A DNA stretch of 64,000 nt from Rhodospirillales bacterium (GTDB lineage Bacteria > Pseudomonadota > Alphaproteobacteria > TMED109), in NCBI GenBank assembly GCA_028824295.1, contig JAPPED010000027.1, forward strand, positions 62,001 to 126,000, in the 5' to 3' direction. How positions within the stretch are numbered: the stretch's first letter is position 1; the number at the start of each line of letters is the position of its first letter. This document shows, in pieces, positions 15,962 through 55,726 of the stretch. A program made the translations under genes and the position numbers. Under the pieces are notes generated by a model. The model had not been told where the DNA came from. It made no database searches and was given only the letters and a program-made list of their open reading frames with translations.

Positions 15962-19617
<3,656 letters not shown>

Positions 19618-19628
19618 TCGGGTCCTGG

Positions 19629-22043
19629 TCAGACCCTTATCGGCATGATGACGTGCAGCCTGCCGACCTCTCCGGTGTCGCGGATCACCGCCGGCTGGCC
19701 GGAGGCCTGGAACTCGATGATCATCTCGTCGCCCTGCGCGGTCTGGCAAAACTCCATGAGGTATTCGGACCGAAACCCGATCACGACCGGGTCGCCCCGG
19801 AACGAGCCCTCGAAGACCTCCCGCCCCGCGCCGTGCTGGTGGTCGCCAGCGCTCGCGGTGAGACTCTCCTCGCTCAGTTCGAACCGGATCGCCCGGCTCT
19901 TCTTGTCGGCCACGAGGGCCAACCGTTCGAGGCCCCGTTGAAGGGCCCCGCAGTTGATCTGCAGCGTGCTGTTGCACGTCGTCGGAATCACGCGCTGATA
20001 GTCGGGGAACTTGCTCTCGTGCAGGCGGGTGACGACCACGACATCCGCGACCGCGAGCCGCATCCAGCCGTTCCCCATGCCCACGCCCACGGCGCCGTCC
20101 GAGTCCGCCAGCAGCCGCTCGATCTGCTCGACCGCCTTGCGCGGCAACGTCACGCCCTCCGCCAGCGTCTCCGCCCCCGGCGGGCACTGGCATGCGGCCT
20201 GCGACAGGCGATGGCCATCGGTGGCGCCGGCCCGGAGGAGATGCTGCCCGCCGTCTTCCACGGTGTGCAGGAAGATGCCGTTCAGGTGCATGCGGGCCGG
20301 ATCTCCCGACATCGAGATCCGGCACCAGCTCAGGAGCTGCCGCAGGTCCGAAACGGGCAGTTCGAACACCTGCTGCCACTCCAGATCGTGCAGCGTCGGA
20401 AAATCGTCGGTCGGCAGCGACGGCAGAATGAACTTGCTCTGCCCGGCATCAACGACCAGCCATGCGCCGTCGCCATCCGAATCGCTGCCCGGGGCCAGGG
20501 AGACGCGCACGTCCACGCCCTCCGGCAGCTTGCCGACGACACTGTAGAAAAGGGGTGCCTCGACGGTGGCCGCGCCGGCGCTCTCGACCTGGGCAGCCAA
20601 GCGTTCGGATTCGTACAGCACCTGATTGTCGCCGGCGTCGAACACGACGCTGCCCGCCTCTGCCCGGATCAGCACGTGCGAGAGGATCGGGCGGGTCCCG
20701 ACCCGCTCGACCACGCCGTGCATGTGCGCCAGGGGCGCCAGCAGGGCGCTTCGCCCCTGGGTGAACCGCAGGCCGGCGTCGGATCCGGCGCCGACTTCGC
20801 GCAGGAGCGCTGCATGTCCCTGCGCAGACACGTTGAGCGGCATGACCACGTGCACCGTCTCGTCGCTGGTGGCGCCTCGGATGACCGCCGCGTGCTTGGG
20901 GCTGTCGAACTCCAGGACGAGTTCCGAGTCGGGGATCACGCGGCAGCAGGCCGTCACGTAGTCGCCGTTGAAGCCGATGGCCAGCGCCTTGCCTTCGTAC
21001 TTGACGTTGATCAGCTCGCGGCCGAGGCCGCTGGCCGGATTGCCCGCGCTCAGGATGAGCGTGTCGCCGCCCAACTGAAAGGTGATCCCGCGGCTCTTGG
21101 GATCGGTCACGGCGCTCAGCCGGTCGATGGCCTGCAGCAGGGACTGCCGGTTGACCTGCAGGCGGTTTTCGAGCGACTGGGGGATCACGCGCCGGTAGTC
21201 GGGGAAGCCCCCCTGGCTCAGACGCGCGGTCATGGACACCGAGCCGACGTCCAGTCGCAGCAGGTTGTCGCCCGACCACAGTGCCACGTCGCCGTCCGCA
21301 TTGCGCAGGAGGCCGTCCACCTGTTCGACCGCCTTCTTGGGCAGCGTGATCCCGTCCTTGATCGCGCCGCCGCCCGCCTCCAGCACGTGCGCCGAGCATG
21401 CGAGCCGATGTCCGTCGGTGGCCGCCGCCCGCAGCAGCGTCTTCCCGTCCTCGTCGGCGGTATGCATGAAGATCCCGTTGAGGTGGAGCCGCGCATCGTC
21501 GTCCGACATCGAGACCCGGCAGGAATCGATCAGCCGCCGGAGCTCCGCGGCGGGCAACTGCAGCGGCGCATCCTCGGGCGGCTCGGCGAACTTCTGGAAG
21601 TCGCCCGGGGCCAGTGAGGGCAGGGCAAACGTGCTCCCGCCTGCTTCGATGATCACCCGCTTTTCGGGTTCTCCGCCCAAGGAATCCGGCAGCTCGGTAA
21701 CGGCCCCGTCGGGTTCCGAGCCGGCCGCTTCGGCGACCGGCGTCATCCGCACCTGGATCGCCGTGTTGCGCGGAATCCGGTTCACCAGGTCGTGCAGGAG
21801 ATGCGCCTCGACGGTGGCCTCGCCCTCCTCCTCGACCGTGCCCGTCAGCCGTTCGGATTCGTAGAGGACCTCGTCATCGCAGGCGTCGAATGCGATCGTG
21901 CCGTTCTCCCCGTCCGCGCCGCGCTGCGCCCGAATCAACGTGTGGGCGAGGATCGGCGCGCGCGTGCGGTCGCGGCGTTCCGCCACCCCGTACACGTGCT
22001 TCAGAGGCGCCAGCAGATCCTTTTGATCAAGCGTAAATTTCAT
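19629..22043 (-). CDS. dnaN: Tandem-fused DNA polymerase III beta sliding clamp (double DnaN)
   Basis: One uninterrupted 804-residue frame holds two complete beta-clamp units; normal DnaN has about 370-390 residues. Unit 1 is residues 1-405 (MKFTLDQ to VVMPLNV). A linker of about 18 residues follows, then unit 2 is 424-804 (LRFTQGR to VIMPIRV). Each unit has all three clamp domains and its own client-binding cleft. Unit 1 has ATDGHRL at 208-214, FPDYRRVIP at 280-288 and MPLN at 401-404. Unit 2 has ATDGHRL at 607-613, FPDYQRVIP at 679-687 and MPIR at 800-803. The offset is a constant 399. Hand comparison of 203-288 with 602-687 gives 42 identities in 86 without gaps, so the duplication is old. 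Unit 1 replaces the usual C-terminal arginine with Asn404. The product should fold as a single-chain six-domain ring around DNA. The frame can be read from a GTG at 22088, but family N-termini favour the ATG at 22043. Confidence 0.95.
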   Translation of the reverse strand: MKFTLDQKDLLAPLKHVYGVAERRDRTRAPILAHTLIRAQRGADGENGTIAFDACDDEVLYESERLTGTVEEEGEATVEAHLLHDLVNRIPRNTAIQVRMTPVAEAAGSEPDGAVTELPDSLGGEPEKRVIIEAGGSTFALPSLAPGDFQKFAEPPEDAPLQLPAAELRRLIDSCRVSMSDDDARLHLNGIFMHTADEDGKTLLRAAATDGHRLACSAHVLEAGGGAIKDGITLPKKAVEQVDGLLRNADGDVALWSGDNLLRLDVGSVSMTARLSQGGFPDYRRVIPQSLENRLQVNRQSLLQAIDRLSAVTDPKSRGITFQLGGDTLILSAGNPASGLGRELINVKYEGKALAIGFNGDYVTACCRVIPDSELVLEFDSPKHAAVIRGATSDETVHVVMPLNVSAQGHAALLREVGAGSDAGLRFTQGRSALLAPLAHMHGVVERVGTRPILSHVLIRAEAGSVVFDAGDNQVLYESERLAAQVESAGAATVEAPLFYSVVGKLPEGVDVRVSLAPGSDSDGDGAWLVVDAGQSKFILPSLPTDDFPTLHDLEWQQVFELPVSDLRQLLSWCRISMSGDPARMHLNGIFLHTVEDGGQHLLRAGATDGHRLSQAACQCPPGAETLAEGVTLPRKAVEQIERLLADSDGAVGVGMGNGWMRLAVADVVVVTRLHESKFPDYQRVIPTTCNSTLQINCGALQRGLERLALVADKKSRAIRFELSEESLTASAGDHQHGAGREVFEGSFRGDPVVIGFRSEYLMEFCQTAQGDEMIIEFQASGQPAVIRDTGEVGRLHVIMPIRV

Positions 22044-40176: not shown

Positions 40177-42525
40177 TCAGCGGCCGTCCTGCCCCGCCAT
40201 CCGGTAGCCGACGCCCCGCACGTTGAAGATCCAGATCGGATCCGCCGCGTCCTCGCCCAGCTTCGCCCGAAGCTTCTTGACGAAGTTGCGCACAAGATTG
40301 ATGTCGGCCCCCTCGCGCCCGTTCCGCCAGACCTGGCGCATCAGGGTCTCGTAGGTGACAACGCGTCCGGCGCTCAGCGAGAGCACGCGCAGCAACTCGT
40401 ATTCCGTGGCGGTGAGGGTCACCTCGCGGTCGGCCACCAAGACGCGGCGCGCATCGTAGTCGACGGTGAGCGCGCCGAGCACGAACGGGTCAGGCCGTTC
40501 GGTGCGGCGGAGCGCGGCGGCCACCCTGGCCACCAGCTCGGTTCGCGAGAAGGGCTTGACGATGTAGTCGATGGCACCCGCCTCGAGGGCTCTGGCCACG
40601 GTTTCATCACGACCGTAACCGGAGATGAACACGACCGGCAGCTCCGCGAGTTCCGGGACGCCCTGCATCAGCGCGATGCCGTCGGTCCCGGGCAGCATGA
40701 GGTCGAGCAGGACCAGGCTCGGCTTCTCGGCGCGGATGATCTGCGCGAGATCCGCGTGATCACCCGTCACGAGCGGGGCGTAGTCGGCCGCGCTGAGTGC
40801 GTCGCGCACGAAGCGCAGCGTCTCCGGATCGTCGTCCACCACGAGGATGCGGGCAGGGGCACGCGGCGCCGACACTTGGGGGCGCCCCGCGCTACGGGCG
40901 GCTTCGCTCACATGAACGTCGTCGACCACCGGCAGCGTGAACGTGAAGCGGCTGCCGTGGCCGGGGCCGTCGCTCTCGGCCCGGATGCGGCCTCCATGCG
41001 CCTCCACCAGCCCCTTGCAGATGACAAGCCCAAGGCCGGTTCCCGCCGTCGTGCGCGGGCCGTCGGGGCCGGCGTACTTGCGGAAGAGTTGGGGCAGCTG
41101 CTCGGGTGCAATGCCCCGGCCCTTGTCAGAAACCGAGACCGCGACATGCACTCCCTCGCGCGCGGCCGAGACCTGGATGGGCGCCGACTCCGGAGACTGC
41201 CGAGCAGCGTTGGACAGCAGGTTGTTCAGCACCTGCACGACGCGCCGCCGGTCGGCCATCACCCCGGGCAGGTTTTCTGGCAGGTCCATCAGCACCGTGT
41301 GTCGACCGCCGCCCGAGAGGAACGTGTTCCGCGCCCGGTCCACCAGCGCCGCCACTTCGGAGGGTTCCGGCGACACCGAGAGCGTGCCCGCCTCGATGCG
41401 TCCCGCGTCAAGCAGTGCGCCGATGAGGCCACGCATATGCCCGGCCTGCTCGTGGATGACGCGATGGAACTCGTGCATCTCGGCCGCATCAAGTTCCGAC
41501 GCCTCTTCCAGCAGGGTGGCAGCCGAACCCTTGATAGCGGCGAGCGGTGCCCGCAGCTCGTGGCTCACCATGCCGAGGAAGTCGGCCCGCAGCCGCTCCA
41601 GCTCCTTGAGCGGCGCCATGTCCTGCATGGTCACGACCATCGACGCCACGGTGCCGTCCTCGGCATGGATCGGTGTCCCGTTGACCAGCATTGATACGCT
41701 TCGCCCGTCCGGGACCGAGAGCACGATCTCCTCGGCACGCACCGTCTCACCGATGCGGAGCTGCTGGGCGAAGGAGAACTCTTTCAGGGACACTTCACGA
41801 CCGTCGGCCCGCCGGAAGGAAATCACTCCCAACAGATCCTCCACCGGCCGGCCCGGCATGCGCAGGCCCTCGACGATGCGTCGCGCCTCCCGGTTGATCA
41901 ACACTGCTTCGCCGCTCTGGGCGTCGAAGACCACGACGCCCACCGGCGAGGTCTCGACCAGCGCCTCGAGGTCAGCCCGCGCGCGCTGTTCGTCGCGGTG
42001 GGTGCGGGCATTGACGATGGCTGTCGCCGCCTGGGAGGCAAACAGCACCAGCACCTCCTCGTCCTCCTCGGTGAACGCCGGCGCCCCTTCCTTCTCGGCG
42101 AGGAAGAAGTTGCCGACGTCCGTGCCGCGGTGACGCATGGGCGTGCCCTGGAAGGTATTCGAACGCATCAAGTCCGTTGCGAACCCGAGCGACTGGACGA
42201 AATCCGGGAGATCAGTCAGCCGGATCGGCCCGGGCAGGTTGCGGAAGTGCGCAAAGAGCCTCGGCCCGTCGGGCCACTCGATGAGCTGCTGGAGCTCCTC
42301 TTTCGTCAAACCGGAGGAGACGAAATCCACGGCCGTGCCGGTGTCGTCCACGGTCGTGATCAGGCCATAGCGCGCGCCGGTGAGCGCACGAGCGCTGTCA
42401 ACCGCCTCCTGCAGGACCGTGGTGACGTCGAGGCTCGCACTGATGCGCAGGATCGCAGCGCTAAGCGAGGAGAGGCGCTCGCGCAGCGCCTGGATCTCCC
42501 TTGCGGAAGCGCCGGTCGTGGTCAT
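40177..42525 (-). CDS. Cytosolic histidine kinase fused to a complete OmpR-type response regulator
   Basis: 782 residues carrying sensor, kinase, receiver and DNA-binding effector in one chain. A GAF domain lies at about 30-180 and a PAS domain at about 185-305. The HisKA H-box is SHELRAPL with His322. The HATPase has NNLLSNA at 434-440, DKGRGI at 467-472 and GTGLGL. The receiver (559-675) has acidic residues 564-566, phospho-acceptor Asp608 and Lys657. An OmpR/PhoB winged helix at about 690-778 ends in VRNFVKKLRAKLG and FNVRGVGYRM. No transmembrane segment is present, so it senses a cytosolic or diffusible signal. The ATG at 42525 is preceded by GAGAGAGGAAA. It is a natural one-polypeptide two-component system. 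Target genes are unknown. Confidence 0.93.
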   Translation of the reverse strand: MTTTGASAREIQALRERLSSLSAAILRISASLDVTTVLQEAVDSARALTGARYGLITTVDDTGTAVDFVSSGLTKEELQQLIEWPDGPRLFAHFRNLPGPIRLTDLPDFVQSLGFATDLMRSNTFQGTPMRHRGTDVGNFFLAEKEGAPAFTEEDEEVLVLFASQAATAIVNARTHRDEQRARADLEALVETSPVGVVVFDAQSGEAVLINREARRIVEGLRMPGRPVEDLLGVISFRRADGREVSLKEFSFAQQLRIGETVRAEEIVLSVPDGRSVSMLVNGTPIHAEDGTVASMVVTMQDMAPLKELERLRADFLGMVSHELRAPLAAIKGSAATLLEEASELDAAEMHEFHRVIHEQAGHMRGLIGALLDAGRIEAGTLSVSPEPSEVAALVDRARNTFLSGGGRHTVLMDLPENLPGVMADRRRVVQVLNNLLSNAARQSPESAPIQVSAAREGVHVAVSVSDKGRGIAPEQLPQLFRKYAGPDGPRTTAGTGLGLVICKGLVEAHGGRIRAESDGPGHGSRFTFTLPVVDDVHVSEAARSAGRPQVSAPRAPARILVVDDDPETLRFVRDALSAADYAPLVTGDHADLAQIIRAEKPSLVLLDLMLPGTDGIALMQGVPELAELPVVFISGYGRDETVARALEAGAIDYIVKPFSRTELVARVAAALRRTERPDPFVLGALTVDYDARRVLVADREVTLTATEYELLRVLSLSAGRVVTYETLMRQVWRNGREGADINLVRNFVKKLRAKLGEDAADPIWIFNVRGVGYRMAGQDGR

Positions 42526-42970
42526 TGGGTTTCCTCTCTCGTCGGCCAGGTGCAGACGCGGGCGCGGGGTCGTCCTCGACGCGATGTCGCCCGGCCGCCT
42601 TGCGCCCGGCGACCCGGTACCGCCGCATCGACCGCAATCGAGCGGATTCATCGAGCGTTTACGAAAAGAATACGAGCTTCGTCAACGCCGATACGTTCAA
42701 GCTACGGTGGTTTCGGTGACGGCACCAAAGTCAGGCGAGGATTCAGGCGAGGTCGCGCGTTCCCAAGCAACGTGTCCGCAGGACGACGGGGGTGCGCGGC
42801 CGACCCGGCTTCGCGATGGCTCGATGCAACCGAGGCAGGTCTGCCCGGCCGCTTCCGGGTAGCCGGCCGGGCCGGCACCAAGCGCCGTCGCACCAAGAGC
42901 TCGATGTGGCGGCGCGGTGCCCAGCAGCCAAGCCGTACCGGCCTTCTTCGCCGTCGTCTGCGAGACCCCG
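42526..42970. other. Intergenic stretch upstream of the fused kinase
   Basis: About 445 bases with no supportable gene. Both neighbours are on the minus strand, so the kinase promoter lies here and the exported protease gene ends here. Nothing else is recognised. Confidence 0.4.
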
Positions 42971-55342: not shown

Positions 55343-55390
55343 GGGCGCATACAGGCAACGGAACAACGGATCGGGAAACGTAGCTTTGAT

Positions 55391-55726
55391 GGGGGCTTCT
55401 GTTGCCAGGTGCCCCCGAACCCCGCCCTACCGTGTGAAGCGGAAGGGACTTGGAACTGTCGTTCCTCTCACTGGTTAGGCAGCGAGAGCAACCTCACGAC
55501 TGTTGTCGTTGGCAGTTATGAATTCGGTCCGTCGCGGCGGTACCATGCCGGGCGAAAGACCTCATCTTTCAGCGGCTGTCGATCCTGGATCGCCCCCGTT
55601 GGCCGACCGTGTGGGAGGTCGGGAAACTGGTGGAGGCGCCGGGCACTGCCCCCGGGTCCAACTCGCCTATTACATGAGCCGTTTATCGCCATAGCCGGCC
55701 GAAGCCGGCACCCACAAGATAGGCGC
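55391..55726 (-). ncRNA. ssrA: Circularly permuted two-piece tmRNA
   Basis: Read on the minus strand, the acceptor piece comes first (about 55726-55628). GCGCCTAT pairs with ATAGGCG to form the long stem. A T-arm (CCCGGGGGCAGTGCCCGGCG) follows, and it ends CGCCTCCACCA. A loop of about 30 bases follows and is presumably removed. The coding piece starts near 55597 with GGGGGCG, complementary to the acceptor 3' end (7 pairs, one G-U). The tag frame at 55513-55478 reads ANDNSREVALAA with stop TAA at 55477-55475. The piece ends in a hairpin GGGGGC to GCCCCC at about 55416-55391. It rescues stalled ribosomes with SmpB and tags the product for ClpXP. Permuted tmRNA genes are typical of Alphaproteobacteria. 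End points are approximate. Confidence 0.93.

Follow-up and report, generated by a model that had tools for sequence, protein, structure and literature searches.

A natural gene for a single-chain beta clamp, in which two complete DnaN units are fused in one reading frame, is real and conserved in a genus of uncultured Alphaproteobacteria. The preliminary description of this DNA had read the product as a natural single-chain clamp, probably the sole one of its genome, in which the linker tethers one seam and leaves the other free. This core reading is supported, but not proven, by the conservation of the fusion in the genus, the lack of any other detected dnaN, the selection acting on both halves and structure prediction. 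The gene lies in the window, i.e., the whole stretch of 64,000 nucleotides that was analysed, and is composed as follows:

19629..22043, minus strand: fused dnaN gene, 804 amino acids, two complete beta-clamp units, 86.2 kDa predicted
21585..22043, minus strand: unit 1 domain I, residues 1-153
21669..21734, minus strand: within unit 1 domain I, acidic insert whose length varies, residues 104-125, disordered by prediction
21195..21584, minus strand: unit 1 domain II, residues 154-283, with AATDGHRL and FPDYRRVIP
20829..21194, minus strand: unit 1 domain III, residues 284-405, with C-terminal MPLNV; predicted tethered seam with unit 2 domain I
20772..20828, minus strand: linker, residues 406-424, SAQGHAALLREVGAGSDAG, 19 residues
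20769..20771, minus strand: codon of residue 425, at the position of the old start codon of unit 2
20388..20771, minus strand: unit 2 domain I, residues 425-552
19998..20387, minus strand: unit 2 domain II, residues 553-682, with GATDGHRL and FPDYQRVIP
19632..19997, minus strand: unit 2 domain III, residues 683-804, with C-terminal MPIRV; predicted free, openable seam with unit 1 domain I

The frame begins with MKFTLDQK at 22043 and continues uninterrupted over 804 codons until it reaches a stop at 19629-19631. In an alignment with E. coli beta, unit 1 comprises residues 1-405, the linker 406-424 and unit 2 425-804; the domain boundaries are approximate, as they derive from alignment to the E. 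coli domain limits (120/244). A Pfam search returns PF00712, PF02767 and PF02768 twice each, and the NCBIfam model TIGR00663 (dnan) also matches twice, with a whole-protein E-value of 2.9e-118 and 395 bits against a curated cut-off of 137.65. Domains I, II and III thus occur in order, twice, with the curated cut-off exceeded, which meets membership of the DnaN superfamily and confirms the earlier claim of two complete three-domain units in one frame. Of the two copies of domain I, that of unit 1 is the more divergent, scoring 36 bits to PF00712 versus 60 for its counterpart in unit 2, and the two units share 42.4% identity over 380 aligned residues. A linker of about 18 residues had been announced; a linker is indeed present, with a measured length of 19. 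The difference between MPLN in unit 1 and MPIR in unit 2, also pointed out beforehand, is real and fixed in all eight aligned orthologs.

The fused gene occupies the normal place of dnaN, as was proposed from the start, in the order dnaA-dnaN-recF-gyrB that is the same in relatives and in E. coli:

22154..23467, minus strand: dnaA, upstream neighbour of the fused dnaN
18466..19617, minus strand: recF, downstream neighbour, 11 bases past the dnaN stop
15962-18466: gyrB, after recF

A promoter and terminator scan gave nothing useful. Elsewhere in the window, an 834-residue frame (40180-42681, minus strand) carries GAF, PAS, HisKA, HATPase, receiver and Trans_reg_C domains, which amounts to a complete two-component system, DNA-binding output included, in one chain, and a tmRNA gene (55384-55722, minus strand) encodes the tag peptide ANDNSREVALAA.

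The fusion is found at full length and without stops in all six genomes of the genus that have the locus (the source genome and five others); the seventh genome, G005, is uninformative, its assembly lacking the whole dnaA-recF region. Seven further records from a separate collection, with accession prefixes starting in JAJ or being VXPW or JAGWAT, contain the same stop-free fusion. Ortholog proteins are either about 97-98% or 88-89% identical. Judging by their titles, all genus genomes are drafts assembled from environmental DNA, which leaves room for an assembly or sequencing error that joined two genes. This objection fails because the same fusion recurs in the seven further records and the five other genus genomes and is under strong purifying selection: the junction is found again in records of different accession series and in two diverged clades, with synonymous divergence reaching about 0.55 at a low dN/dS. 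Such an error, which had been named beforehand as a refutation together with a stop between the halves in other isolates, is ruled out by these independent stop-free assemblies, and we leave it next to no credence.

Among the records carrying the fusion are jk18 bins, jk18 being a label for Ircinia sponge metagenomes (PMC9531527). Several members of the genus come from sponge studies, and it resides partly in sponge microbiomes. Two records, L033 and L035, are titled Thermoanaerobaculia and Vicinamibacteria, yet contain the dnaN region of this genus at 98% and 88% protein identity, respectively; their titles or bins look wrong.

Outside the genus, none of the 20 genomes from other genera of the same family in which a dnaN was detected has a fused one; all have single frames of 371-410 residues. 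No other fused clamp occurs among the matches listed for a class sample of 240 and a phylum sample of 160 genomes. A second look at 24 genomes whose matches scored low or were multiple did not reveal one either, lower-ranked matches being covered in part. Note that this sampling was limited to Alphaproteobacteria and Pseudomonadota and included no other phyla. Long open frames in G093 and G113 proved to be single DnaN genes, the latter apparently frameshifted. Matches of a tblastn search in phages and plasmids were discarded as well, the places listed spanning about 1.1 kb, i.e., single clamps matched by both halves; no fused clamp was found in viral contigs. Another alphaproteobacterium (G078) carries two additional dnaN copies, diverged and equal in score, at positions 1038980 and 1792464 of its 1.79 Mb contig C2; L070 covers the first.

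The fused DnaN is probably the only clamp of its genome. A second, normal-length dnaN had been put forward as a possible refutation; a search of the source genome (3.02 Mb, 35-contig draft, 97.9% complete) with the PF00712 profile and with the fused protein found none, the profile matching exactly twice, both times inside the fused frame. If the fused gene encoded a mere side clamp, a normal dnaN doing the essential work would have to hide in the roughly 2% of the draft genome that is missing, and several clamps do occur in some bacteria (PMC8357120). Nonetheless, the fused gene occupies the dnaA-dnaN-recF-gyrB place and is under strong purifying selection, and a second clamp is absent from each of the six genus genomes with the fusion as far as these searches reach, leaving the side-clamp explanation scarcely tenable.

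Between species of the genus, dN/dS ranges from 0.04 to 0.19 and is similar in both units, while synonymous divergence amounts to about 0.55 at most. Selection is thus observed on both halves, and judged by these ratios neither is decaying. When the halves are split and placed in a tree together with 29 single clamps of Alphaproteobacteria, they group as fully supported sisters, and an AU test rejects two other groupings (p-AU near 0.0003). Because the two branches are very long, attraction, of which the tool gives a warning, cannot be excluded from the tree alone, and each half placed alone has no clear kin. Shared changes at near-invariant positions (for example S145, D149, A151, H154, T194, Q202, G219, L270 and G302) and a one-residue insertion at the VLYESE motif common to both halves point in the same direction as the tree. 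Of 97 columns that are near-invariant in single clamps, both halves keep 52 and both have lost 28; a further 11 are lost in unit 1 alone and 6 in unit 2 alone. Reciprocal loss between the halves was rejected as a statistical pattern, since losses are more often shared than reciprocal. The simplest origin is one tandem duplication of dnaN with in-frame fusion in the ancestor of the genus, followed by strong divergence that has left two client clefts and two halves of the DNA channel no longer identical. Units 1 and 2 are only 31-38% identical to class relatives, which share 63-67% among themselves. For GyrB the corresponding values are 57-60% versus 65-70% and for RecF 44-48% versus 50-55%; measured by protein identity, DnaN has diverged far more than these neighbours.

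The codon of residue 425 is CTG in the window and in L033, L034 and L038, and ATG in L035, L036, L037 and L039. Since the clade of the window has lost the old start, unit 2 need not be expressed on its own from there, and the CTG codon fits a start that would no longer serve. An internal start for unit 2 was dropped as a required feature because ATG is retained in one clade only, and an AG-rich stretch upstream of it is too distant to be a ribosome site.

Six clamp domains in one polypeptide would close on themselves as a single ring, the replicative clamp. AlphaFold2 models of the window protein (pLDDT 83.3, pTM 0.76) and of the L039 ortholog (pLDDT 82.2, pTM 0.75) suggest that the mutual arrangement of the halves is defined, a judgement from pTM made without a control. 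Halves lacking a fixed arrangement are expected to give a clearly lower pTM. Compared with solved clamps, model residues 423-804 (unit 2) reach Z-scores of 28-30 (VIA-align); against Bartonella DnaN (6ptr_B), unit 2 scores Z 30.5 with an rmsd of 1.5 over 371 residues. The test for the beta-clamp fold is thereby met on unit 2, and the unit 1 model has similar secondary structure. The dimer-seam residues F106, L108 and E304 are kept in both units. The replacement of the charged seam residues R103 and E298 in both units speaks against such a ring, although these residues are not universal in other clamps. At position 272, unit 1 has A and unit 2 has L, which would give the free seam the bulkier residue; this is weak evidence because relatives mostly have T. 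With the dimer-seam residues kept in both units, the sequence does not exclude rings formed between chains, either from two fused chains that each contribute one kind of unit or as larger assemblies. Both units are equally constrained, however, the models of two orthologs, with pTM near 0.75, suggest that the arrangement inside one chain is fixed, and a 19-residue linker is inferred to favour self-closure, so that inter-chain rings appear very unlikely.

A further possibility is that the fusion is a polyprotein whose linker is cut, the working clamp being a two-chain heterodimer of units 1 and 2. The linker has a low pLDDT of about 63-65, and in an engineered E. coli tandem clamp the linker was cut in vivo (PMC3022782). 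On the other hand, no cleavage site was noticed in the linker (without a systematic search), its length is constant in all eight orthologs, and free units could also homodimerise, leaving no obvious reason to keep the fusion. Cleavage is not impossible, but we regard it as unlikely. The one-polypeptide condition is met at the gene level, and persistence of the uncut chain in cells is inferred. We hold with good confidence that the single-chain ring, with one tethered and one openable seam, is the working form; its closure is read from pTM only, in the absence of protein data.

In such a ring, the seam between domain III of unit 1 and domain I of unit 2 adjoins the linker and would stay tethered, whereas the seam between domain III of unit 2 and domain I of unit 1 would be free, and it is here that the clamp loader most likely opens the ring. 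The placement of this gate is an inference from the tethered seam staying shut, with the caveat that a 19-residue tether by itself would not forbid opening at the other seam. In E. coli loader structures, the ring opens where domain III of one subunit meets domain I of its partner, and this domain I loses order in open states (PMC11044049); delta, docked in a cleft, distorts the seam (PMC11139829). The loader would, by analogy, sit on the domain III side of unit 2, and domain I of unit 1, which has the disordered acidic insert, would be the flexible leaf of the gate. Loading, the encircling of DNA and the binding of Pol III are likewise inferred, as no biochemistry is available.

The client clefts were compared over eight aligned orthologs (E. 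coli numbering). Residues R152, L155, T172, G174, H175, L177, P242, V247, V360, M362 and P363 are kept in both units of all eight. The test for the client-cleft core (L155, T172, G174, L177, P242, V247, V360 and M362) is met, as these residues are identical in both units and all eight orthologs. Four other positions, invariant or nearly so in single clamps, differ in a fixed manner: unit 1 keeps R24 and N320 and has R365 replaced by N and P346 by A, whereas unit 2 keeps R365 and P346 and has R24 replaced by V and N320 by R (P346 is the alphaproteobacterial residue; E. coli has S). These fixed differences at the cleft rim and on the DNA-facing side make asymmetric roles of the halves plausible but unproven, and such a division of labour remains an inference. 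That the two clefts favour different partners is only suggestive without data on partner preference. The full proposal, a natural single-chain clamp with a fixed gate and two specialised clefts between which partners sort, is a tentative one to which we give somewhat less than an even chance. If it were true, the loader would always act at one seam and polymerases and repair partners would be sorted, making a directional toolbelt that is impossible for a homodimer.

On the partner side, the clamp motif of DnaE is QSSLF or QASLF in all seven genus genomes and is of an ordinary type, and the clamp-loader delta gene holA is present in all seven. The cleft motif SLD of delta (ISLDG in the whole genus, holA loci L076, L071-L075 and L077) was rejected as special because relatives vary widely at this position (SLM, SMM, SFD, AMT). 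The source genome (G000) and G004 are without the strong Y-family polymerase (DinB-like) match of G001, G002, G003, G005 and G006; an ImuB-like match is kept in six of seven or all genus genomes and a second DnaE in all.

Bacterial clamps are described as homodimers, in which a mutation alters both protomers together. Since the protomers mutate together, the questions of which cleft serves which partner and which seam opens are beyond simple mutation. Means of studying clamps of defined heterodimeric make-up in vivo have been lacking, and the engineered tandem clamp was set aside since its linker was cut (PMC3022782). A natural covalent pseudo-dimer, maintained while a genus diverged, has its own codons for each cleft and seam, which makes the toolbelt and single-gate questions directly testable. 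More generally, fusion lets two normally identical clamp halves differ, and evolution can thus break the symmetry of a core replication ring, here in an alphaproteobacterial genus. In the open-access literature, with subscription journals mostly outside the scope, only engineered single-chain clamps and no natural one were found; a survey of how clamps evolved speaks of gene duplications and never uses the words fused, fusion or tandem (PMC8357120). A natural single-chain clamp is likely, though not proven, to be new to the literature.

The fused protein shares domain order, fold, cleft core and gene neighbourhood with bacterial DnaN (TIGR00663; E. coli beta 2pol, Caulobacter 6izo, Bartonella 6ptr). 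Known DnaN proteins are homodimers of about 370-residue chains with identical clefts, whereas here two different units form one 804-residue chain; the classical homodimer criterion of one unit of about 370 residues per chain and identical chains is not met, the units being 42% identical and no other clamp gene having been detected. Compared with the engineered tandem E. coli clamp, which is artificial and cut at its linker in vivo (PMC3022782), the present one is natural, with diverged halves and a 19-residue linker. An engineered single-chain PCNA likewise has all its ring units in one polypeptide and leaves one seam unconstrained, but it is a trimeric clamp of the PCNA type with artificial 11-residue linkers (PMC2824762). 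Finally, archaeal heterotrimeric PCNA, for example that of Metallosphaera, is likewise a ring of non-identical paralogous units, but these are of the PCNA type, unfused and encoded as separate genes and chains (PMC4894655).
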